Position numbers and translations under genes: made by a program. A stretch of 64,000 bases of DNA. Origin: Clavulina sp. PMI_390. Its lineage: Eukaryota > Basidiomycota > Agaricomycetes > Cantharellales > Hydnaceae. Within the stretch, counting starts at the first letter, position 1; every line of letters starts with the position of its first letter. Shown here one piece after another: positions 10,266-63,698 of this stretch. Below the pieces are notes generated by a model. The model did not search any database, was not told the origin of the DNA, and saw only the letters and a program-made list of their open reading frames with translations. The stretch spans positions 1-64,000 of the forward strand of contig WIDE01000062.1 in the NCBI GenBank assembly GCA_015039315.1, in the 5' to 3' direction.

Positions 10266-10802
10266 GTATTGCACTCATAATGTATACTACATTGATAGAA
10301 TGTATCAGGCAAGCCCAAAGTGCACAAGATAGCAAACTCACTTAGGGTCAGTCCTAGTGTTGAGCTCGAAGATAACGTCGGAGAAATAGTGCCCACTTCA
10401 ACTTAATCTGCAACAGTCAAGGTACATTTGATATGCTTCCAGGTGGAGCTCGACTATGGGATTGCTCTCTCTGACCAAGGGATCATACGGAAACGCTCCA
10501 ATCAATATCATTACTGAGAAAGTACGGTAAACAGCATATGTCATGGTACAGTATGTTACTAGGTGCGGCTTGTATCGAGGTCGGCCGGGGTTACTGGTGG
10601 TTAAAACGACAAAAGCGAGCGAGAAAAAGAAACAGTGCAGTCTACAAGAAGCGGGCAAGATTCGATGAGTCGCCTTAAGAGAAGGCAAGAAAATGATTCC
10701 ACGGCAGGTCGAAATGTCAAGCAAGCTGGACGGCAAGCTATAAATTAGCCAAGAAAAGAGAAGAGCGAAAAAGAACCGAGCGAGAGGAGAATTTTAGGAT
10801 CT
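10266..10802. other. Convergent 3' flanks
   Basis: Lies between the ends of two convergent genes. It may hold a last exon of the DUF6534 gene (10309-10406). Otherwise I see nothing coding. Confidence 0.4.
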
Positions 10803-13800
10803 TTAAGCCGCTGGGGACTCTTCCTCGAGGGCGGTAGCGTGGAGTCGCTCAGCTTCGAGCCAAATGGAAGCTTGGTCAATGATCTCATTGATGTGATCAA
10901 CAACAGCTCTGCGAACACGAATTTGGGCAGGGTCCTCTTCACCGCCTTCCCAGAGGACAGAGATTGAGACTTCGACCTATAGAGAAAACAAGAAAAATCA
11001 GGATACAATTTTAAATGGGGATAAGGGTTAGCGAACCTTTTCAGCAAGCTCGAAGAGCTTCTCAGTTAGAGCAATCCCCACAGCATCAGCAGCCGCATTC
11101 AGACGGCCCATGACGATGTCAGCACCACCAGTGAAGATCTCGTGCTTGTGATCGTCTACGAAAGTGTGGAAGACGGCTTTCTGTCTTTTCACGCTGCCAG
11201 TGCCGCGTTCTTCCATAGCCCGAGCGTAACCATCGAACATAGAGCTCTGCACATGAGGAATGAGGGAGCGCGAAACGTCCTTCTGGTTATCCTGAAGCGC
11301 ATCGTGGACGACGCCGGTGATCTTGTCCATCGCTAGCTTTGCCTCGTTCATCGAGACCTCAGCCTGCATACCAGCTCGCTCCTGAAGACCCACGGGGCAC
11401 TTGGACTGAACCTCATTCAGCACCACCGTTATGGCGCTATTGGCAGCGTTTTGGAAAGAAGCGAAAAGGTCGGACTCAAACACCTTTCCCCAGCTCGAAG
11501 CGATACCCTTGCTCATCGGAGTAGCCAACTCTTCATTGATGTCAATGCGATGACTTCCATTGCGACGGAGGGCTAATTTCATTCAAAGTTAGGGGTGCGA
11601 CTCAAAAAATGATTGACCATCACGTACTCGCTCGGTAGGTAGCCCAATGCATCGAACCGGCAATGTTATCGGACACTTCGACAGCTGAAGCGGCGGCCTA
11701 GGAACAGGCTTGAGAACTTTTTCTGAATAAAGACACAACGGAGATGCTCACGTTTGCTGCTCCAACTTGACATTTGTCTTCCAAGCCATCGCGGAACTTC
11801 TCTTTCAAGCCGCGAACGCAATCATTAGCGACTTCACCAAAAGCCTGGTCACACAAAAGAAGCTAAGATTTCTCGAAGCTTGGGGAGCAGTACAGAGGAA
11901 ATGAAACATACGGTGGCAAGTTGCGCGGTAATACCGACGACCTTCGGGTTTTGAGGCGTTCCATTCATCTTCGGTCTTGCGTCAAATGCTCCAGGGATTG
12001 GGTAGCCGAACTCGTCGTAATCGTCTTCCTCATCATCTTCCTCATCGTCTTCGGCGTCTCCGTAAATGCCCATTGGGTCAGCCAGTCTGGTCTCGTAGAG
12101 GTCACGGAGCACCTGGCGGTCCTCGGCAGTTACGCCTTCCCCAGCTCGGAGGTAGGCGCGAACCGAGTTTGCGAAAACCTTGATTGAGTGGAGGAAGATG
12201 CGGGCGCTGCGCTCGCGGGAGGCGACGGTTAGAGCACGGCACCACTCTTGGAGAGCAGGAATTCCAGTGTCCTTGACGTTACTGAAACAAATGGGGTCTC
12301 CGTCGCCTCGTACTTGTCTAGGAAGCGATGCCAACAAAAAATTAACGCTTAAGAAAATTTACGGCAGAAGTGAAGCTTACCGCTTCAAGCGCACATAATC
12401 ACGGGCGGACGCAGTGAAGACAGGAAGGTTGATGCTAGCATAATCTACGTTGGATTGGCTTAGCTCGTCAGCTGATTACGAATTCCGAGGTTCATAAGCT
12501 TACCGCGGAGATCTTCCTCGGGGTTGAATGAGTCGGGATCGCGCTCTTCAGCAGCAGCATCCTACAACAGAACAAGAGGGTGAGACGGGGAGATAAGTTA
12601 ATTAGGCAGGTCACGCTCACATCCATGCCCTTCAATCCAGTTCGGAAGTCTTCACGAAGGACGTCGATAGAGAACTGATAGAGGTCACGATCGTCAGTCG
12701 GAGCGTGAATTAGCATGATTATGAAGTTGGTCTCACCTCGGAGCGCCTGAGCGAACAGAAACCGTTCTTCTGACGCTGCAACTTGGCCCTCTCTTTCTTG
12801 AGCGTCGTGATGATATTGATGGCCTCCTTTCGCTTCTCAGACTCGTCCTTCTTCAAGTCGGTACCAGCTTTCAGCGCTTCTCGGGACTCCTTGAGCTTCT
12901 CCTTGAGGTCTTCCACGGTGACTTCAGATTGAGGCTCATCCATGTCCTCATCATGCTCGGCGTCGCTATTTCCAGCGTTGGAGGAACCATCAGACTGAGC
13001 GTCTTCCTTGTCGCTCTTGTCGCCAAAGTCGTCGTCCTCAGAGTCGTCAACAATGAAGTCGTCCAGAGAATCAGCCTCAGAGATGTCGTCATCGTCGAAA
13101 TCAGCATCCGAATCCTCCGCGAGTTCAGCAGCAAGGTCGTCCTCGTCAGCATCACCGTCATCGGAGGTGCGCCTACGCTTGGACGACTTCCTTCCGTCGT
13201 TCGCAGACTTGCGCTTCTTGCCACTCGTCTTGCTCTTCCCCTTGCCTTTGGCCTTCTTCTTGGCGTTCTTTGCGCCGTTGGGACCAGTGACGATGGGAGT
13301 AAAAGGTTCGCCATTTTCCAGTGCCTCGATGTGATCCTTGTACTCCCTAATATGAGCACGAGTGTCTCTCAAAGCGTTTGCGAGTTCTACAAAGCGGCAA
13401 AAAACATGAGCCACGGATGAGGACAACACAAGAAACCAATATTAACCTTCGATCGTCGTTTCGGCATCAGTCTTCTGGCTTTTCGCAACCTTGTCGCGTG
13501 CATCGATATCATCAAGGGCTGCCTCGATGACCTCGAGCTCAGGATCGTCCTTGAGGTGTAAAGCTATATAAGCATGAAAATAGTGATGAGTATCTCCGCT
13601 CGACCAGCATTCGTGGAGAAGAAAACTGACATCGAATGATTTCTTCGCATGAAACATCATCCGTCTTCGTAGCAATAAAGGTTATTGTGCTTGAGTCATA
13701 GCTATGGTATATCATGGAGAATGAGCGGCCAGCCGAATGACGAAGACCGATTCAGATACTCACGCGCCATCTAGTTTGTTGTAAAACCGAAAGAATGCAA

Positions 13801-16062
13801 ATCACGTCAGTTGGGATCACTACCATTGGCAAATAATCAGTCGGAAGCGGAACGTACCCACTAAGAGTAATCTGGTCAGTGTCAGATCGTCTACGGTCTG
13901 ATCTTAACTAAAGATACTCACTGAGTAGTTGTGTCTTGAACGCGTCACCCATGAGGTCTAACATATGCTAGATTAGCATCGAACACCAGGTCAAAAGGGC
14001 AATCCTTCGTACCTCGGGCAGTTCTATCGTCGACGGCGCGAGTGATGGGAGCGAGAATCCAAACACAATTGCAGTTCTTCATGTAATTTTTGGCGATGCT
14101 ATTACGGGCCGCATTCGCATCGGCCGTACCAGGAAGGTCGCAAAGGACAGCGCCTGTTTCACAACAAGCTATCACTCAGCACGCGGTTTCATAAGCCTAT
14201 GCCAAGGAAACGTACCTGTCTCCAGCGCCCGAGCGTTGCAACGGACCTTGACGTTTTTGATAAGAGGCCAAAGCTCAAGATCTTCGATGTTGATATCCTT
14301 CTCCTTGTCCCTCGACGAACCAGCCAGCGCCAAAGCTCCAGAAGAACTAGCAGGCGCCGAACCAGCACCTGGAGTCGCAGTTCCCTCCTTGCCCGCTGCG
14401 GCCGAGGCCTCTGCTTTCCGCTTCAATAGGTCGATGAGAGAGCCTCCCATCGTCTTCGGCTTTTCCTTCTCCTTCTCGGGCGCCTTGGGCTTGTTCTTGT
14501 CAGTGCCTTTTTTCTTATCGTTCCCGCGGCGCTGATCTTTGGAATCGATAAACTTGGCGATTTCTTTGCCGAAGGTTTTCGAATCCTTGGCTTCGACATG
14601 CCTGGTCGCGCCGAGGATACGATTGATGCGAGAATCAGCACCCAGAATCTGGTCGACCGTCATATTACCGAGACGCTCGGGCTGGACATCAAATTGGGTA
14701 GAAAACAGAGATCAACGATGTGGGGAGATCAAAGTCAATGCGCAGAGCATGACATACCGCAATGCCGGGGTACACGGCGTGCACCTTGCTCCAAGCGACA
14801 CCGGCTTCGTTGCCAAGGTTCTTGACGCTTTTGATGTTGCCTTGTTCATCAACCAAGTCTTCGACAAGGAGCTTGAGCTCGGAGCGCCACTCAGCCTCCG
14901 TAAGGAATGAGACATCGGCGTCAATAGTTTTCTTCTTATGATAGGAGATCTCAGTGACGACGGCAGTGCACGCTAGGAGCAGAGAATCATTAGTTCAGGT
15001 GGTGACACGAGGAATGGAACATCATCGAACCTCGCATGCCGCTGGTAGGCACAATGTTATCTACATGTCAAACAGATCGTCAATACGGAAGACGTAAGTT
15101 ATGAGCAGCTGACTTACCGTCTAGAATCGCGTTCAAGATCGACGACTTTCCAGCGCCGGTAGCTCCGCATACAGCGATGAGAGTTTTGGGGGATCCTTGG
15201 CTCTGAAGGCTATGGAGCGTAAGGCTCAGCAATTCAAGTAAGCAAGTGAGACAATGGCACTACTCACGTGGTAAGATCACGGGCCCAGACTTCTTGGCGG
15301 ACTTTGTTGCCTTGCTTGATGGATAACACGCGATCTTTGATAGCCTCAACCTATGTATATGGTGAGTTGAAGGAGATCATCGCCGAAAAACACAACGCAC
15401 CATGTGGAGCCCTTCTTTGAGCGCACTCTCAGGAGTATAGACTATTTCTTCAGGGATGTTATAGAGCGTATAATTACGCGCATTTTCTTTGGGGGCATTC
15501 GTTGTACGATTCTCGCGGGTAGGGAGTGACCCGACTCCACGACCGTTTTCTGGGGCTACGTCGTCCAAGTACATTCCCTCGTATTCGCCATCGTACTGAA
15601 GAGGCTCGGGCTTAGGCTTGTTCTCGCTGGGGCCCGCACGAGCGTTCCATTCCTCTTTAACTGAGACACCAGGGGAGGTGTACGCACCCCCAGAAGAGGC
15701 GCCGGGGGCATAACTGGCTCTATTGTCTCCAAAGACCTATCGACGACAAGGAAAGACATATTTAGTGAGTAAGAAGTTCGCGTGTGGAAAACAATGCAGA
15801 TCCGAACCATGCGCTCGTCGCTGAATTCTTGCTTGACAGTAGTGCTGCCTTGGCGCGAAGTAGAGGCACCGTTCAGCGAATAGGGACCATTGCTGGGCTC
15901 TTGCTTCACAAAGGTGCCGTTTGAGGGCCACTGGATTTGCAGCGGCGCGTCGAGGAGCGCATTGTGGGTGAAAGTCTCGCGTCAATGTCGGCCGTTCCCA
16001 GCGATACCGTCGCGTCGGTCGAAAACGAAAGGGACTCACAGCGGAATTTTCTTTCTTGCTCA
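10803..16062 (-). CDS. Dynamin-like nuclear GTPase (SLIP-GC type)
   Basis: Large P-loop GTPase of the Dynamin_N group, closest in layout to vertebrate nuclear GTPase SLIP-GC and its many basidiomycete homologues. It should bind and hydrolyse GTP; its cellular role in fungi is not established. More than fifteen short introns interrupt it, and the protein exceeds 1000 residues. Visible motifs: P-loop CGATGAGKSS (about 15142-15165), G3 CDLPGTADAN (about 14113-14143) and G4 ATKTDD (about 13657-13674). Between G1 and G3 there is a Lys-rich insert and a Ser/Ala/Gly linker (14290-14530). After G4 a strongly basic block (KKKAKGKGKSKTSGKKRK) followed by acidic Asp/Glu runs (12930-13290) looks like a nuclear-localisation and coiled-coil linker. 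The C-terminal part is helical. The start MSKKENSA at 16062 is chosen because its first intron restores the following frame. Confidence 0.8.
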
Positions 16063-16563
16063 TGGCACTGAAATACGCACTCGTAATCGAACGAGCGGTA
16101 ATCGATGCACGTTTGAGACTGGGTGGCGGTTGAGGTGAGGAGAGGGACGCCGTCAAATTGAATTGGGGGTCGTCATTTCTGAAAATCAACAAATGTCAAC
16201 AACTTGGGGATTTGCAGTGTGGATTATGCGGAGAGCAACAGGGATTCACGCGTCGCAGTTGCTTAGTATCCTTTGACATCTACTGTGAACGCGTGACTCA
16301 GAAGTCAGCGTGGTTTTCCGCGTTGTTGTTGTCCCGCGGTGAGCGCGGTACCGCGGCTGCAGCGATCGGCGTGCCAAAAATTCCGCCCGCGAAGACAGCT
16401 ACGCCGACAACAAGTCATTACACTCTGAATATTATTTTTTGTTCATCAAGCGACTTTTAAAGGTAGTAAGTACATGGGCTCTCCAGTTCCTAGCATGAAG
16501 CGAGGAGAACAAGTGACTCAGGCTTCAGAATGAGAACGATCACTATGGCATAGTACCAACTTA
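16063..16563. other. Intergenic region upstream of the GTPase
   Basis: Contains the promoter of the GTPase gene and the 3' flank of the next gene. No TATA box or repeat noticed. Confidence 0.35.
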
Positions 16564-54148: not shown

Positions 54149-54293
54149 ATGGACTTCTTGTTGCACTCCGCTTTCTCGAGCATTCCTCGGAAGAAAGCAT
54201 GACGACGACGGCCCCGGTCTGAACGACTCTAACGCCGTGTTACCTGTCCCGGCCGTTGGTGGTGAATCGATCGGCTGGTGCGTCATAATTTGA
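54149..54293 (+). pseudogene. Relic pheromone precursor (CaaX CVII), frameshifted
   Basis: The end of this segment matches the two intact precursors downstream: DSNAVLPVPAVGG, then a C-terminal CVII directly before a TGA, a valid CaaX form. An ATG at 54149 opens MDFLLHSAFSS, resembling the MDLFSIVNFVFSS start of the intact genes, but its frame stops after 17 codons and is one base out of step with the CaaX frame. The CaaX frame itself contains no ATG after the stop that precedes it. Its distance to the neighbouring TDP2-like stop (423 bp) mirrors that of the intact units (481 and 487 bp). A sequencing error of one base would make it intact, so its state needs checking. No TATA box at -83. Confidence 0.65.
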
Positions 54294-54715
54294 GCGCTAT
54301 ATCTGCTGTACCAAGTAAGGGGTACTCAATAAGTAGAACTATGGTATCTTTACGGCTGGTTTTGTTAATTTTTAGCCTTTCCCACTCACTCACGATACTC
54401 GCTGATATGGTGAGGCGAGCTCGAGCCATATGAGCCTCTGGCGACTCTCAAATCGATTTGTACGGGTCCCTCACCATTCTTGATCCGTCATGGGCACTGT
54501 TATTGCAATTTCTTTTACGTACACTCCTATGCGTATGTACAATTCGGCAGTTTACCGCGAGAAAATAATACCCATCTCCAGGTAGTTGACTAAGATAGCA
54601 CAACTCTAGAGCGAGCAGTTATTGCAAGAGGACAATAGCAACAACTTTGCAATAGAGAGAAGTAGGTTCAGCTATGAGAGCACAACCAGTCACCAACTCA
54701 ATTTGCCTCCACTAG

Positions 54716-56301
54716 TTAGGGCCCAACCCAGACGCTCGCCACCACCCCCAGATGGTCGCTGGGCCACACACTCATCTCTTCATCATCTACCTTCGCTAAG
54801 CGCTTCACAACCTCGTAAGGGATGCGCTCAGCACCCATGAACTTCGCATTCCTTGCATGCACTTTCGTCAAGGGACGAACGCGACGATCGTAGGACCCGG
54901 TAGCGTATGGCGCGACAGCCGCGAGTTCGGAATCCGATTCCGAATCATCGTTTACATCAGCGGAAGCCGGGGTAGGGTCAGATAAAGGGGTAGGGGGAGA
55001 GGGAGAGGGAAGAGGAGGGGCGCCGGGAGAGACTTTGGCCAGGATGTAGTCCAGGCGGGCGATGCGCTCTTTACTAAGCTTGTCTTTGAACTTGAGACCA
55101 GCGACGCCGAATGAGGGTATGTCTGTGAAGAGGTCAACCTGGGCCTCGCGTAGGACGGCAGTCAATTTGGACGGAGCGTCTTCGCTAGGGCTGGCTGTCA
55201 TTGTGAAGGCTTCAGCAGGTAGCGGCCGCATGCGAGAGAAGCCCTCTGCTATTACGAAGATGTCTCTCCACCCCTTCCGGATGAAATTCTCCTCGATCTC
55301 GGCGTACGATTCGATATTCGTGTCTCCACACAACACGCCTAATTCTAGTGCCTCAACCGGTGGTTTCTCTGGCTCCTTGTCTTCTTCGATGCTTGAAGGA
55401 GCCGCGGCCTTTTTCTTTTTGCTGAAAGATGTAACTTCCGGGGCTGCCAGTGTTGGTGACGGGAGTGGTGGAGGCAACTGCGACAGACGGGAGATGCAAA
55501 ACTCCATCTGTCGTTTGCGTTCAAGCGGGTTGTACTCGAGGTGAGTGTTTCCCACCAGAGTCTATCATCGATGGGAGCACAAGAGTATAGCATGGAGACG
55601 AATCGGTGACAGAAACGATAGTCAGAAGAAGACGTGTCGAAATTTAGCCTTCTATTCAATTGCGATCGACTCACCACACCCCCGTGCCGCATCTTCACCT
55701 TGAGCATTGACAGTCCTCGAGCGCATTTGCTGCCCTCGTATCCTTCAAATGTCGCGCTCACTTCGCATCCTTTCTCATAGACGAGAGTACGCTTCACGAG
55801 GATAATGGTCCCGTAGCGCGATCCGGTGACGGTCGTTTCATCTGAGAGATAGGTCGTGAGGTAGGTCGACCGCGTGACGTGATGCGCCAGGAGAATGTCT
55901 TGGAATTTGGGAGTTACTTCTTGCAGACAGACGATATCAGGACCCTATGAAACATAAAAGTCGTGGATCAATATACTCAGTGGTGAGATTCGGCTAAGCC
56001 TAACAGCCACAGAAAGAAGCAGAGCCAGAGCAAGAACACGTACCTCTTCGCCCAGATTCTCAATGAGCGTCTTCCACCGCAGCTCGCATAGAGTTGCATC
56101 GAACCAGACATTCCATGTCGCAATCTTGAGCTGCCTAAAAGGCCAGGCTTTGGGCCCAATACGTCGAACCCAGTTGGACGTCTTCGTATCGGAGAGTTTG
56201 TACTCGTTCCACGACCCCAGGAATGTCGAAGCTACGGAAGAAGTGGGAGCTAGGGGGACATAGGAAGAGAAAGAGTAGAGTGGGATCGGAGTCAGAGTCA
56301 T
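54716..56301 (-). CDS. TDP2-like endonuclease/exonuclease/phosphatase, copy A
   Basis: Member of the metal-dependent EEP fold, nearest to tyrosyl-DNA phosphodiesterase 2, which removes topoisomerase II adducts from 5' DNA ends. Three exons. Motifs in order: KIATWNVWFD (metal-binding Asn), then across the first intron GPDIVCLQEVTPKFQD (catalytic Glu), GTIILVKRTL, TLVGNTHLEYNPLERKRQM, GVLCGDTNIESYAEIEE (Asp/Asn), IARLDYILAK, and SVWPSDHLGVVASVWVG (Asp-His pair). These are the four TDP2 signature blocks. A Ser/Pro-rich linker precedes the last block. About 420 residues. It is the left member of three tandem copies and lies convergent to the broken pheromone relic. Confidence 0.85.
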
Positions 56302-57445
56302 GATTTCACTTCACGGAGCGATTGAGGATCAGAATCGCAGCGAGTGGTGAACGATGAAGGTTTAGGATGAGCACAAGTGTTTCAGCAGCAGCACTGTTAT
56401 GGGATGGAAGGATGCACAGGTTTTTGATCTTATTTCAAGAATTTGTTGAGCATCTTGTAGTTGCAAACACAGCCTTGCTAGTCAGACACGGGACGCATTC
56501 AGTACGTGTCCGACATCAACACGTCACAACAACGTGTCCCAATCAAACCGTACTCTCCTATCGGAGAAGTAGAGATATCTTTGATCTACTCCTTTGGTTT
56601 TTGCATATCTACCTCCCTTGTCCCCCACCAGGTTGTTCAAGCCTATTGACTGGCGCAGTCTCTTGCCGAAAACAGTGTTGCTTGAACACTCCCAAATTCG
56701 CTCCAGTTACTTCATGAGGTGGTAAATTGGACCATTCTAACTTGAGGCGTCTGATTTGTGCCAGCTGTAACTTCTATGATTGCCTCGGTTCTTAATATTA
56801 TCCTGGGCTTATCCCTGCCAGGGTCCTCGCCGAATCACTTGGTTTTGTCCTTTCAGGGCACAGAGAGAATGGGGATCGTCACTGATAAGAACTTCGACCT
56901 ATCTGCTACCCCTTTTCGCCTCAGGTGCTCATCTAATCATCAGCCATCAGGGACCTTCAATTATGCGGGGCTGCGTGGGCTTTTCCAGAATGCCGGCATA
57001 ACCAGTTAATGAAAGCTATAGAGTTCAGTTAGCTCTATTCATTGCGACAAGCTTCATTATACATTTGCCCCCGTTATCACCATGAGCGGTATTGAAGGCG
57101 TGACATCGGCGACGGTCCATCCGCTGCCATGCGCCCATCATATTCGAGCTCAGTCAATCTCGGTGTGGGCTAGCTGGAAATATACTGCTGTTAGGCCGCT
57201 GATGTTGGATGTAGTCAATGGCCACGGGCTCGACTACCCATCCTGATATTTCCAGGCGCTCTTCAAACTTAGGAGGATGGATTCTCAGAATCGCCAGTTC
57301 ATGTCTCACCGCGTTGTGTCCTATCTGTACAATTTGCTTGCTGCGCCCCCTGCAGCCGTAGGTATAAAAGGGTTGGCCAAGCGAGGATTGGGACCCAAGC
57401 TCCATCCTCTCGCCCAATCCACCAACAAACAAACTAGAAGGCCTC
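56302..57445. promoter_or_regulatory. 5' flank of TDP2-like copy A and pheromone upstream block 1
   Basis: From about 56579 onward it aligns with 58387-59257, for example cttgaacactc, cttggtttt.tcctttcagg and aatgaaagctatagagttc. This duplicated block ends at the pheromone start and probably contains its control region. Confidence 0.8.
57363..57370 (+). promoter_or_regulatory. TATA box of pheromone precursor 1
   Basis: TATAAAAG, 83 bp before the ATG. The second precursor has the same element at the same distance. Confidence 0.8.
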
Positions 57446-57610
57446 ATGGATCTCTTCTCCATCGTCAACTTCGTTTTCTCCAGCAGTGCCTCGGAGCAGC
57501 AGGATGAAGCGGAGACTATTATCCCAAAAGACTCAAAAGACTCTAACTCGGTCCTGCCCGCACCAGCAAGCGGTGGAGGATCGAGTGGCGGTAGTTGTGT
57601 TGTCGTTTGA
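57446..57610 (+). CDS. Lipopeptide mating pheromone precursor 1 (CaaX CVVV)
   Basis: A 54-residue, intronless reading frame too short for ordinary gene finding. It starts MDLFSIVNFVFSSSASEQQ, the form of basidiomycete a-factor-like precursors, has an acidic middle and a Gly/Ser-rich end, and stops right after CVVV, a CaaX box for farnesylation, -VVV removal and carboxyl methylation. The mature peptide would be a short C-terminal fragment; its N-terminal cut site is not obvious (a KDSKDSN stretch is the only charged place). Identity to the 51-residue precursor at 59258 is concentrated in the first 19 residues, KDSNSVLP and the CaaX end. A GTGAGT splice-donor-like motif follows seven bases after the stop in both genes. 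The pheromone would be exported by an ABC transporter and sensed by STE3-type receptors, none of which is in the window. Confidence 0.88.
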   Translation: MDLFSIVNFVFSSSASEQQDEAETIIPKDSKDSNSVLPAPASGGGSSGGSCVVV

Positions 57611-58090
57611 GTGTTGGTGAGTTCCGGTTCAAAGGAGAGTCCCTCTTCACGCATCCGAGCTGATGATCCTCTTGCGACGACGGTTTTGTGCTTCAAGGCT
57701 CCGCAAAATACCAGAAATCTATTGTCAGTGAGGGGATTGTCTCAGATTACTCGTGTCTTAGGTGAGAATTTCCTTACATTTCTCGGATTTTGGATTGATC
57801 AGCCCCCTAACCTTACAATCCATCTTTTTCCTGGCAGTATCCCTTAGTTCGACCAGTTGCGTATAATGTTGTGTCCCATAGGGAGTCTATCAGTACAATT
57901 AGAAAAATTCGTTCGTAGTCATCGTCGGAATACTGAATATTGCTGACGCCAATACGAATCTATCATATCATAGTGGCACATTATTCATGAAATTTAGCAA
58001 ATAGTGAAAAGAGGCTGCATAGTCAATGAACCAGGGAGCCAGTTCAATGCATGCCCCCCTTTGCCGTCCATCCACCTGTAAACCCATGGG
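57611..58090. other. Spacer between pheromone 1 and TDP2-like relic
   Basis: Aligns in pieces with 59414-59899. Contains the conserved post-stop GTGAGT motif at 57617. No further gene. Confidence 0.6.
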
Positions 58091-58386
58091 CTAAACCCCG
58101 ACCCAAACGTTCACCACCACACCCAAATAGCCGCTTGGCCACACGCTCATCTCCACATCATCCACATATGCCGGGCGCTTTACCACATCCCGTGGAATAG
58201 CGCCAGCACCCAAGAAGCGCGCGTTTCTGGCGTATACGTTCATCGGAGGAAGCAAAAACTGACCCTCTGGGCTGATGGGGATACCCGAGCTCACAGATTT
58301 ATCAGTGAGATTGAGAGCAGAGGTTGAGGGTAAGGGAATTGGATCGGCATTGGGAATCGCTTTGGCGAGAATGTAGTAGAGCTGTC
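58091..58386 (-). pseudogene. Truncated TDP2-like relic
   Basis: Only the last ~95 codons of a TDP2-like gene remain: YYILAKAIPNADP (full copies have LDYILAK/LDYLLAK), then NVYARNARFLGA, and SVWPSGYLGVVVNVWVG. The catalytic Ser-Asp-His of the intact copies (PSDHLG) has become PSGYLG, so the Asp-His pair is gone. Homology ends at 58386, where upstream block 2 begins. It lacks all N-terminal metal-binding motifs and cannot be active. Confidence 0.85.
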
Positions 58387-59257
58387 TTTTGATCTCCTCC
58401 TCTGATCCTTCCGTACCAAGATCCCTTCATCTCGCACCAGATTGTTCAAGCCTGTCGCCAGGCTGAGTCTTTTGCCGAAAATATCGGTACTTGAACACTC
58501 TGAATTTCTTACAGTTGATCTGCAAAGGAGCCAAATGAGGCTATTCTAACTCGAGGTGTCTACTTCGTGTCATAAATCCCTTCAGAATTCGTTGCCTCAA
58601 TTTTTAATACTCTTCTAGTGTCGTCCCTACAGGAGTCTTTCGCCGAATCCCTTGGTTTTTTCCTTTCAGGGGACATACAAAATGAAGATCGCCACTGATA
58701 AAAACTTCAACTCATCTGATGTCCTTGTCTACTCGGGTAATCATCAAGCCATCAGCCATCAGCGACCTTCAATTATGGGGAACTACGTACACTCTGCTAG
58801 AATGCCGGCATAAGCAGATAATGAAAGCTATAGAGTTCCGTCGGCTGCATTGACTTGTATAGCCTCATCATACATTTGTAATTTGCTATAACCATTCAGC
58901 GAGGTAGTATTGAAGGCTCAACACTGGCGACGCTCCATCCGCTTCATTGTGCCTGGCCATCGTATCCGAGCTTGGCCAATCTCGATACACATAAAAAGCT
59001 AACTTTCAATATCTTTCCCGCTGTGCGGCTGGTGATGCGTGCGGTCAACGGCCACGGGGGCGATCACCGAGCCTGATCTTTGCAGACGTTCTCCAAACTT
59101 GCGTGTGCTCAGTCTATTCCTCATCAATGTCATTAGGGTCTATCAGTCTGTTTGCTTATCGGGCGCCCTGGAGCTATAAAAAGCGAGGCCAAGCAGATGA
59201 CCAGACTCAGGTTCCTCCCTCTCCCCCTACCCACAAACGAATACTCTAGAACGCCTA
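58387..59257 (+). promoter_or_regulatory. Pheromone upstream block 2
   Basis: Second copy of the block at 56579-57445, about 870 bp, with many substitutions and small indels. It leads directly into pheromone precursor 2. Confidence 0.8.
59175..59183 (+). promoter_or_regulatory. TATA box of pheromone precursor 2
   Basis: TATAAAAAG, 83 bp before the ATG, matching precursor 1. Confidence 0.8.
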
Positions 59258-59413
59258 ATGGATCTCTTCTCCATCGTCAACTTTGTTTTCTCCAGCAGTG
59301 CGTCGGAGCAGCAGTCTGAAGTGGAGGGAACAACCCCAAAAGACTCCAACTCGGTCCTCCCCACCCCAGCAGCTGGCGGTGGTTCCAACGGTTCTGGTTG
59401 CATCGTCGCTTGA
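59258..59413 (+). CDS. Lipopeptide mating pheromone precursor 2 (CaaX CIVA)
   Basis: A 51-residue intronless frame starting MDLFSIVNFVFSSSASEQQ and ending GSGCIVA before TGA; CIVA is a typical farnesyl CaaX box. Compared with precursor 1 it lacks three residues of the KDSKDS stretch and differs in nearly all residues just before the Cys (GGGSNGSGC against GGGSSGGSC) as well as in the last two residues. That is the part kept in the mature peptide, so the two pheromones could differ in receptor specificity. Upstream block, TATA spacing and post-stop GTGAGT (59420) are conserved with precursor 1, arguing that both are expressed. Confidence 0.87.
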   Translation: MDLFSIVNFVFSSSASEQQSEVEGTTPKDSNSVLPTPAAGGGSNGSGCIVA

Positions 59414-59899
59414 GCGTTAGTGAGTACTAGTTGAAGCAGAGTCGCTCCTCATGCATCTGACTTCGGTACCTTCTTACAACGACTGTAGTATGCTTCAGTA
59501 TCTCCCATGGCGCCGAAATTCTAGCGTGAATGTGAGCTGCTCTCTCATATCGTTCATGTTCCAGGTGAGAACAACCTTTCACTTCTTGAATTTTAGATTG
59601 AGGAGGTTCCTAATTTACGACCATCCCGTTGCCCTTTCAGCACTCCCTAAATCGTGCAGTTTTGCGTATAATTTTGTCTCTCATACGGAGTTATTGGTAG
59701 AATGATATAGATAGTCATTTTCCGAATGTTGTCGATCACGCCGATACCTAGCCCTCATCAATCTATCCCCTTACAATAACAGTACATTTTTGAGAAAATG
59801 AGTAGACATTTCAAGAAGGAGGCGCGAACAGTGATTCAGAGAATCAATCCTAATGAAGTAGTTCCGCTCCATTTAGCCGTGAATAGTTAAACCCAGAGG
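59414..59899. other. Spacer between pheromone 2 and TDP2-like copy B
   Basis: Aligns in pieces with 57611-58090. No other gene seen. Confidence 0.6.
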
Positions 59900-61419
59900 T
59901 CAAACGCCAACCCAGACGTTCACCACAACACCTAAATGGTCACTCGGCCACACACTCATCGTCTCATCATCCACGTTTCCCCAGCGCTTCACAACTTCGC
60001 GCGCGATAGGCTCAGCACCCAAGAAGCGCGCATTGCTAGCATATACGTTTGTCGCAGGTAGCGAGACCTGGCCATCCTTGCGAACGGATGGGGCTCCAGA
60101 GCTTGATTCCGCGGCGCCGTCGGGGAGAGTGGTAGCAGTGGATGTTGAAGGATATGGGAGGGAAGGGGTGTCGGGAAAGGCTTTGGCGAGAAGGTAGTCC
60201 AGGCGGCCAATACGTTCTTTACTGACCTTGCCCTTGAACTCGAGGCCCGCAATCCCGAACGATGGGATGTCGGTGAAGAGATTGATTTGGGCTGCCGATG
60301 TAGGAGAGTCCACTTTCCCTGCAGCCTCTTCGCTAGGGCCAGCGGTCTCAGTGTCGGCATCGGCATCGGCATCGGCGCCAGGGTGGGTATCGGAAGAGAC
60401 CAAAGTCGGTGGAGACCGTCGCTTGGCGAAATTGTCCGCTATCACGAAGAGATCTTTCCAGCCCTTCTGGACCATATTCTCTTCAATCTCAGCATACGAT
60501 TCGATGTTCGTATCGCCGCACAGTACACCCAATTCTAGATGCTCGATCGGTGGGTGATCTGGCTCTTGGGTACTTGAAGCTTTGGATTTCTTCTTTGCAC
60601 TAGAAGTTTGTTCCGCCGGTGATGCTACTGGCGTTTCGGATGACGAATAGAGCGGTGGAGGTAATCGGGATAGGCGCGAGATGCAGAAGGACATCTGCCG
60701 TGCTCGGTCGCGCGGGGTATATTCAAGGTGAGTATTTCCCACTAGGACTTATCATTATCCATCAGCACAAACAAGAAGCTTCTTAGCTTCTCATCGAGAA
60801 ACTCACCACAGCACCATCTCTCATTTTCAGCTTCAGCATCGACAGACCCCTCCCGCACTCACTGTTCTCATACCCCTCAAACGTTACACTCGCTTCGCAG
60901 CCCCGCTCAAAGACGAGCTTTCGCCGCACGAGGATGATGGTCCCATACCACGAGTTTGTGATGGCCGTTTCGTCGGAGATATGCGTAGTGAGATACGTTG
61001 ATCGCGCGACGTGGTGCGTGAGAAGGATCTCCTGGAACTTGGGAGTGACTTCTTGTAGGCAGACGACGTCTGGAGCCTATAAAACAATCAAGCGCGCGTT
61101 AAATTATGAGGCCAAATCGTCAGCCTCGGTACAGTCAACATAAGAATGAGACAAAGAGAAATGCACTCACCCCCTTTTCCAGAGCTTCAATCAACATTTT
61201 CCACCGCAGCTCGCACAGCGCAGGGTCAAACCACACATTCCACGTCGCGATCTTGAGCTGTCGGCGCGGCCACGCCGCATACTGCCGTACTTGAGACGTC
61301 GTCCCAAAGTCTCTGGGGTTGTACAGCTTCCATTCACCAGGTATCTCCAGTAGCGGCGGAGAGGACGTAATGAAAGGGAGTAAGGAGTAGTGGTATAGTG
61401 GGATAGATGTCACTGTCAT
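59900..61419 (-). CDS. TDP2-like endonuclease/exonuclease/phosphatase, copy B
   Basis: Paralogue of the gene at 54716-56301 with the same blocks: KIATWNVWFD, APDVVCLQEVTPKFQE, VGNTHLEYTP, GVLCGDTNIESYAEIEE, IGRLDYLLAKAFPD and SVWPSDHLGVVVNVWVG, so all catalytic residues are kept. A Thr/Ala/Asp repeat (GADADADADTETAG) lies in the linker. The second intron is a problem: after the donor used in copy A (gtgagt following DGAV) every nearby acceptor is out of frame. Using GTGCTG a few bases upstream with the acceptor cctag keeps the frame and costs about five residues. If that donor is not used, the copy is frameshifted. About 400 residues. Confidence 0.78.
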
Positions 61420-62212
61420 TGTCGTCGTGCAATTATTGGGTATTCAGACGCTCAATAGATGATGAATATCGTGCTCTGCGCCACCGGTGTAGGACTCAAA
61501 GCGCTGTATGACTTGACTTTGCGGTTTCACAGCTTGAGAATCAGGCTGGCGACCAGAGGCTGGGCAGCCCTCGAGATGAAAGAAAGCCTCGGCGAGTCAT
61601 CGATCTCTCGGGAACGAAGCGCTTTTTATGATTCGATACGATGCACAGGTTTCTCAGTCGTATTTCACAGTTGGGGCTCCATACACACAGCCTTGGAGGA
61701 AAATATTGCAAATGTGGGTGCGTATTGGATCAACAAGCCACAATAACGCGCGCCAATCATAAGCTTTCCTTGCGCTTTGAGACACGACTGGGAGGGTGGG
61801 AGATTGGCAATAGAAGACTTTTGGTTTTCTCAGCACTGGCGATGCTTCATTGGCGCTGGTGGGGCATGCTCACTGAGTGCGCTCCTGTTGGCAGTCTCCT
61901 AATCAGCACGCTAGTAAGCATCTCGACGTCGAGGCCGTTCTTAGTGTCAGCACACAAACTACCTCGCTGCACCAAGTGAAGGGACGCTAAGATGACACAC
62001 ACACACATAGAGAGGATACAATGAACGTGAAAGATTCAATTAGGGGTCAAAGGATAGATGGTTTAGAGTGTTCGTGTTCACATTCCAGAAAGCTAATGAT
62101 GTTGTTACAAAGGGGGTGGACAATGAATGACGATGAAGCAAGGAGGCAACGGGGGAGATGGAGATGTCGAAGGAGGTGGACAAGTAAAGGGCGCATCAAT
62201 AGGGGGCGGCCC
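61420..62212. other. Spacer between TDP2-like copy B and ATG8
   Basis: Holds the 5' flank of copy B and the 3' flank of ATG8, including a short AC microsatellite near 61995. I found no further pheromone-like CaaX frame. Confidence 0.45.
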
Positions 62213-63194
<982 letters not shown>

Positions 63195-63698
63195 GATAGT
63201 CTAGTAGTGGGTTGTGGTGGTTTGAGTAAGTGGTGGGGAGGAGGAGGAGGGCAGGGGTGGTCGTGACGGCTGACTTAAGGAGGACGTGCGGCGACGCCAA
63301 ACAAGCCGCTACATCACCTCGTTTATTCCCACGCCAGAAAACTAAGGGTCCTCCGTCGCCAAGAAAGGCATTTGCGCAGATATATCGAAGAAAGCGATCA
63401 ATTGTGGATGATGTGAAAGGAAAACAATGGGGTATTATGATAGTAGAAGAAATATAGTACACTAGACCATGGGCTATGTCATAGACTGAAAGAAAAAAGA
63501 GAAAAAAGCATGAGAACCGGATGTGTTGATGAGGGAACCTCTCGTGGTATTCGTGTGTGATGAGGAAAACAAATGGCACTATTACTAGCATGTTGAGACA
63601 ACAACATAGAATCTTGGGGATAAAGGGATAAAACAATGAGAAGGAAAGAAGAAAAAAACGAACACAAAAAATCAAGTGAATGTGAACGGAGAAAGGAA
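63195..63698. other. Upstream region of ATG8
   Basis: Purine-rich on the plus strand, with no gene I can support; should hold the ATG8 promoter and the 3' flank of the gene running off the right edge. Confidence 0.4.

Follow-up and report, generated by a model that had tools for sequence, protein, structure and literature searches.

A duplicated array of pheromone-like CaaX precursor genes and TDP2-like genes in Clavulina sp. PMI_390

The window analyzed here is a stretch of 64,000 bases (bases 1-64000 of the 199,238-bp contig C261, in an assembly of 39.4 Mb) from Clavulina sp. PMI_390, a member of the Cantharellales in the database taxonomy. At 54-61.4 kb it contains an array of three forward-strand frames ending in a CaaX motif, each facing a reverse-strand gene for a TDP2-like enzyme. 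We interpret the array, with a probability of roughly 0.55, as a duplicated neighborhood of two gene families that are linked through long-standing adjacency and shared duplication, of which one encodes pheromone-like CaaX precursors and the other comprises the only TDP2-like genes found; most likely, the enzyme gene (or else the peptide gene) is carried along as a passenger. An earlier note on this DNA had described three convergent pairs 423-487 bp apart and proposed a self dot-plot as a check. The stop-to-stop distances between peptide and enzyme are 423 bp (unit 1), 481 bp (unit 2), and 487 bp (unit 3), and the self-comparison of the array region gave clear off-diagonal lines at the units. 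The pairing, which the note regarded as consistent, extends to a fourth convergent unit on the same contig (unit 4) and to a locus on contig C39, that is, to all TDP2-like loci that two protein queries detected. The genome holds at least five TDP2-like loci (one of them a stub) and at least five intact CaaX genes, both numbers being lower bounds taken from the best-scoring candidates only, and each lies no more than 2.4 kb from a member of the other family.

With the unit-3 precursor as the query, the genome gave seven matches at E ≤10: three on C261 (units 2, 3, and 4), two on C39, and two further, weak matches (E values of 0.16 and 0.53) that were excluded from the counts; the peptides of units 2 and 3 match each other at an E value of 4e-17. 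The last exon of the enzyme also gave seven matches (E ≤1), which comprise units 1 to 4, two exons of one C39 gene, and a weak one on C232 (E value of 0.3), likewise excluded. The first C39 precursor as the query revealed no additional locus in the genome.

The units of the array differ in what they have kept. In unit 1, as the earlier note had recognized, the peptide gene is broken and the enzyme is intact: the peptide frame stops early, a C-terminal remnant lies in a different frame (tblastn E values of 2.5e-4 against the unit-3 peptide and 2.5e-5 against the unit-4 peptide), and the enzyme, spliced at GT-AG introns, is identical in 457/457 residues to the NCBI protein DL93DRAFT_2099553 from Clavulina sp. 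PMI_390. In unit 2, the peptide gene is intact and the enzyme is a stub that reads Ser-Gly-Tyr where units 1, 3, and 4 read Ser-Asp-His, so that the reported loss of Asp-His was borne out. The two copies of the tandem block align at 67.6% over 1791 columns, including about 878 bp upstream of the unit-2 ATG (about 870 bp in the note), and the second copy begins right where the unit-2 stub stops. One partial duplication therefore suffices, and on these alignments unit 2 is best read as a partial tandem duplication of 1.8 kb whose stub is the end of the block; the view that it is a full unit in decay, taken in the note, is disfavored. The block stops inside the last exon of the enzyme and abuts the next copy, which supports joint duplication. 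The enzyme genes of units 1 and 3 also align with each other in two blocks, at 64% (54723-55558 with 59907-60745) and 70% (55669-56133 with 60801-61260). In unit 3, the peptide gene is again intact, whereas the description of the enzyme as nearly intact could not be upheld. The AG of its intron-2 acceptor lies one base downstream compared with unit 4, direct splicing yields 174 residues followed by a stop, and the model at NCBI falls 21 residues short of unit 4 at this site. With the acceptor displaced in this way, the enzyme of unit 3 is probably broken and non-functional.

The enzyme and the precursor of unit 4 stand tail to tail with 471 bp between them. Between units 3 and 4, near C261:71.5 kb, lies a gap of 10 N flanked by a 1.55-kb direct repeat of 98% identity (C261:70006-73122), which is probably an assembly artefact. 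On C39, the enzyme is arranged head to head with the precursors, whereas the pairs on C261 are convergent; the second C39 precursor is the pair member farthest from its partner, 2352 bp from the first matched base of the enzyme, with the first precursor in between. Past this second precursor come a 2.3-kb N gap (C39:40980-43279) and then a further copy of its upstream region. C39 was also considered as the other haplotype of C261, which is unlikely, as one of its flanks (5 kb) matches itself alone, and the other matches itself and scattered family members at 66-78%, one of them at C261:127 kb. Beside the array, the stretch at window positions 62200-63200, with a gene that we take by eye to be ATG8-like, is single copy in the assembly; the array's flank on this side has one full-length copy, as does the kinase stretch of C33 described below, and both likewise speak against a second haplotype. 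Because a colinear block of a large gene is common to both (window 10.8-14.9 kb and C39 43.7-47.6 kb), the C39 and C261 regions are probably old paralogues. The large gene itself occupies window positions 10400-16300 and has a paralogue at C39:43680-47580. What we assume, from a P-loop motif recognized by eye, to be a fragment of the same gene lies at C261:76360-76914, directly upstream of the unit-4 precursor, and pieces of the gene seem to be attached to the precursors of both C39 and unit 4.

The two parts of unit 4 have different nearest relatives. Its enzyme block is nearest to that of unit 3 (77% over 2032 columns), and its precursor cassette most resembles that of the second C39 precursor, with 87% identity over 323 bp. 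The enzyme on C39 shares 38-47% identity with those of units 1 and 3. Synonymous divergence (dS), given here as point estimates by the Nei-Gojobori method, is 0.57 between the unit-3 and unit-4 enzymes and 0.22 between the unit-4 and C39 precursors. These values and the different nearest relatives suggest that the peptide cassette moved between the C261 and C39 loci after the enzymes had diverged. The ratio of nonsynonymous to synonymous divergence (dN/dS), estimated in the same way, is 0.14 for the enzymes of units 1 and 4 (dS of 2.2, near saturation), 0.21 for units 3 and 4, and 0.20 for units 1 and 3. For the precursors it is 0.24 (units 2 and 3) and 0.58 (unit 4 and C39), a range that leaves out the pair of unit 2 and the first C39 precursor, which is saturated and has an undefined dS. 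The features of all units are collected in Table 1.

Table 1. Features of the array, unit 4, and the C39 locus. Positions without a contig name are those of the window.
Feature	Position	Strand	Basis
Unit 1 CaaX precursor, N-terminal remnant, ATG to premature stop	54149..54202	+	sequence
Unit 1 CaaX precursor, C-terminal remnant in a different frame, ends WCVII + stop	54213..54293	+	tblastn with unit-3 and unit-4 peptides
Unit 1 TDP2-like gene, exons 56301-56044, 55944-55675, 55561-54716, 457 residues, intact	54716..56301	-	splicing, PF03372 match, NCBI identity, fold
Tandem block of 1.8 kb, first copy (upstream region, peptide gene, enzyme end)	56568..58291	+	67.6% to 58375-60103
TATA box, -83 of unit-2 peptide gene	57363..57368	+	sequence scan with window control
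Unit 2 pheromone-like CaaX precursor, 54 residues, CVVV end, intact	57446..57610	+	frame, genome search
GTGAGT splice donor 7 nt past unit-2 stop (putative 3'-untranslated-region intron)	57617..57622	+	sequence scan with window control
Unit 2 stub of TDP2-like last exon, SDH to SGY	58091..58426	-	frame, search, translation
Tandem block, second copy	58375..60103	+	self-comparison
TATA box, -83 of unit-3 peptide gene	59175..59180	+	sequence scan
Unit 3 pheromone-like CaaX precursor, 51 residues, CIVA end, intact	59258..59413	+	frame, genome search
GTGAGT splice donor 7 nt past unit-3 stop	59420..59425	+	sequence scan
Unit 3 TDP2-like gene, exons from 61419, 61076, about 60747; intron-2 acceptor shifted one base	59900..61419	-	splicing, NCBI model
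Unit 4 TDP2-like gene, 450 residues, open and spliceable	C261:74370-75881	+	
Unit 4 precursor, 80 residues, CIVV end	C261:76594-76352	-	
C39 TDP2-like enzyme, matched span	C39:38351 to 36924	-	
C39 first precursor, 54 residues, CVVV end	C39:39700		
C39 second precursor, 80 residues, CVVV end	C39:40703		

All five intact precursors end in CaaX (CVVV, CIVA, CVVV, CIVV, and CVVV). Three of them are 51-54 residues long and start with MD, and the other two, of 80 residues, start with MG. Conservation is concentrated in a G-rich end, as 10 of the 15 invariant columns fall within the last 22 residues; four of the five ends read GGGSNGSGC, GGGSSGGSC, GGESNGSGC, and GGGSNGSSC, and the first C39 precursor deviates with NPPSGGTGC, the least G-rich. 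No charged maturation dipeptide of the ER-type list was found within 28 residues of the cysteine in any of the five, the sole listed dipeptide being a DE in unit 2, 29 residues away. PF08015 matched neither the five precursors nor anything else genome-wide, and 14 controls likewise gave no match. In a set of 5.8 billion proteins, the unit-3 precursor, the sole query, found no homologue with three shared words. A TATA box stands at -83 to -101 in all five intact peptide genes, compared with 5 of 611 ATGs in the window, and a splice donor lies 7 nucleotides past the stop in four of the five (found by script in units 2 and 3 and by eye in unit 4 and the second C39 gene), compared with 4 of the window's 536 open frames; the two genes of the window itself are counted in both controls, and the five represent about three lineages and are not independent. 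The fixed position of the TATA box is not general, because the unit-1 remnant has none in the 250 bp upstream and that of the precursor on C33 lies at -195.

These precursors are similar in several respects to the non-mating-type pheromone-like peptides of Coprinopsis, Laccaria, and Agaricus, as these are presented in sections of one source (PMC8305134). They are likewise short CaaX precursors, and in four of the five the G-rich end is near GGGSGNGAYC, the end given there for C. cinerea (GGGSGNNAYC in L. bicolor); no STE3 link was seen for them either; and in four of the five a putative splice donor lies just past the stop, where three pheromone-like genes of A. bisporus have introns in the 3'-untranslated region. 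However, for A. bisporus the same sections report charged motifs in each of its four precursors, which are 44-54 residues long, whereas the Clavulina precursors lack the charged dipeptide and two of them have 80 residues and an MG start. A neighboring TDP2-like gene, present in Clavulina, goes unmentioned in the sections on A. bisporus (PMC8305134). Because the motif reported for all A. bisporus precursors is absent, we regard the Clavulina peptides, on this comparison, as pheromone-like by resemblance and not as members of the non-mating class.

The enzyme is TDP2-like by predicted fold, in agreement with the earlier note. Pfam recognizes PF03372 alone (E value of 3e-10), and Foldseek places TDP2 at ranks 1-45 for the predicted structure, which contains long low-confidence insertions; the model thus has an EEP fold nearest to TDP2 among the chains ranked by Foldseek, with families outside that ranking still possible. 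The motifs TWN, LQE, GDTN, and SDH, which we take to be the catalytic set of TDP2, are complete in units 1 and 4. Alike in predicted fold and in these motifs, the enzyme is unlike TDP2 in that significant sequence similarity is lacking here: the single sequence had no match to solved TDP2 up to an E value of 0.1, and a profile search of solved structures gave a best TDP2 E value of 0.27, which is not significant and stands behind an unrelated chain at 0.055. Among 7992 scored candidates, the profile found nine relatives, three from the same genome, five from metagenome-type sources, and one from Phenoliferia. The protein of Phenoliferia psychrophenolica carries a PF10275 domain (presumably an OTU-type peptidase) and a TDP2-like domain in one chain; in Clavulina, its parts match separate loci, on C22 versus C261 and C39.

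If the array is a duplicated neighborhood, the precursors may be farnesylated, clipped, and exported as G-rich lipopeptides, which would act on an STE3-like receptor encoded elsewhere, in self-recognition or hyphal signaling and not in mating-type choice. The enzyme would free DNA ends of 5'-tyrosyl or similar adducts, without a direct role in peptide signaling. Unequal crossing-over could multiply short segments of peptide gene, gap, and enzyme end, unit 2 possibly being such a partial copy, and ectopic exchange might shift peptide cassettes among places that already hold the pair, as in unit 4 and on C39.

Several points weigh against this interpretation. Under passive linkage it is hard to account for a pair that is kept at two loci in different orientations, with enzymes that have fewer than half of their residues in common, and the different nearest relatives of the parts of unit 4 are not easily reconciled with it or with simple co-duplication. 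As assembled, the link of unit 4 to units 1-3 crosses the 10-N gap with its suspicious repeat, and the distance is to be taken as provisional. With the charged dipeptide absent from all five precursors, the word pheromone-like denotes resemblance. The phrase "only TDP2-like genes" applies to the two protein queries, in a genome that has other EEP loci as well, and the pairing was examined in one species, Clavulina sp. PMI_390.

It has to be considered, although we think it improbable, that the CaaX frames encode prenylated small proteins with some other role, which are not secreted, and that both families simply belong to a fast-evolving, F-box-rich region. The absence of the maturation dipeptide from its usual place, the two 80-residue precursors with their MG start, and the F-box-like genes close by are in keeping with this idea. 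However, the invariant columns gather near the C-terminus, as expected of a mature lipopeptide, and the G-rich end is like those of known pheromone-like peptides.

Greater doubt attaches to a functional module, in which enzyme and lipopeptide serve one process and selection maintains their adjacency; the enzyme might, for example, process DNA ends so that this recognition locus goes on recombining, or act in a step that the peptide sets off after cell fusion. It keeps a modest probability because the pair persists at two loci in two orientations and unit 4, with an enzyme and a peptide gene of different nearest relatives, is of mixed ancestry; that all TDP2-like loci found are paired and that dN/dS is 0.14-0.21 for the enzyme pairs also speak for it. 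However, unit 1 has an enzyme with no working peptide gene and unit 2 a peptide gene with no full enzyme, so each gene can do without its own partner; in unit 3, an intact peptide gene stands next to an enzyme gene that is probably broken; and we know of no mechanism for such a module. Slightly less credible again is the more specific proposal of a two-gene module of the Cantharellales, consisting of a secreted lipopeptide and a TDP2-like enzyme, that is kept by selection and rebuilt after recombination; it could be, for example, a recognition system in which enzyme-assisted local recombination diversifies the peptide repertoire.

Mating pheromone precursors have a charged dipeptide (ER and similar) some 10-15 residues ahead of the CaaX, according to sections of two sources (PMC5473757 and PMC8305134). 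Matches to STE3 (PF02076) were found in six genes of the genome, on C33, C68, C269 (two genes), C296, and C24, and none on C261 (199 kb) or C39 (79 kb). On C33 (18 kb examined), a 39-residue precursor with a CIII end lies some 1.7 kb from the end of the STE3 frame; it carries DEER 8-12 residues from the cysteine and is unique in the genome. An open frame on C33 is, we assume, a PAK/STE20-type kinase. Because STE3, the ER-motif precursor, and the PAK-type kinase frame occur together there, the analysis also points to C33 (C33:35000-44900) as most likely the pheromone/receptor (P/R) mating-type locus of Clavulina sp. PMI_390. Sections of a study on Trichaptum place PAK at the flank of MATB (PMC8970355). 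Near the other STE3 genes, a scan for CaaX frames of 28-120 residues with an ATG gave nothing convincing in 18 kb of C269, 16 kb of C296, and short stretches of C68 and C24. The suggestion that the array is itself a mating-type (P/R) locus or sublocus with mating pheromones, to which the earlier note had leaned, is largely refuted and was rejected as very improbable: several divergent CaaX precursor copies in one region do recall an Agaricomycete P/R (MAT-B) locus, three of the five start with MD, and the genome has six STE3-like genes, but the array contig and C39 are without a receptor match, STE3 and the ER-motif precursor stand with the kinase frame on C33, none of the five peptides has a listed dipeptide at ≤28 residues from the cysteine, and PF08015 is silent, though also for the controls.

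The pairing of a pheromone-like gene with a TDP2-like gene was not known to the earlier note, and none is described in the titles or abstract openings among the open-access matches listed, a set that leaves the subscription literature mostly outside. According to sections of one source (PMC8305134), it is unknown whether pheromones interact with the non-mating STE3-like receptors of mushrooms. In this context, the array and its relatives offer a compact family of candidate ligands for such receptors, which has both intact and broken members, occupies two unlinked loci, and keeps a constant neighbor. If the pairing recurs in other species, it would indicate an unsuspected link of peptide signaling with DNA-end processing; if it does not, it would be a clear case of a hitch-hiking neighbor.

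From 4332 to 53257, the window holds many long single-exon frames that look similar by eye, and the two tested are F-box-like below the Pfam cut-off. Beside the C39 enzyme, too, there is a frame that by eye looks like these.

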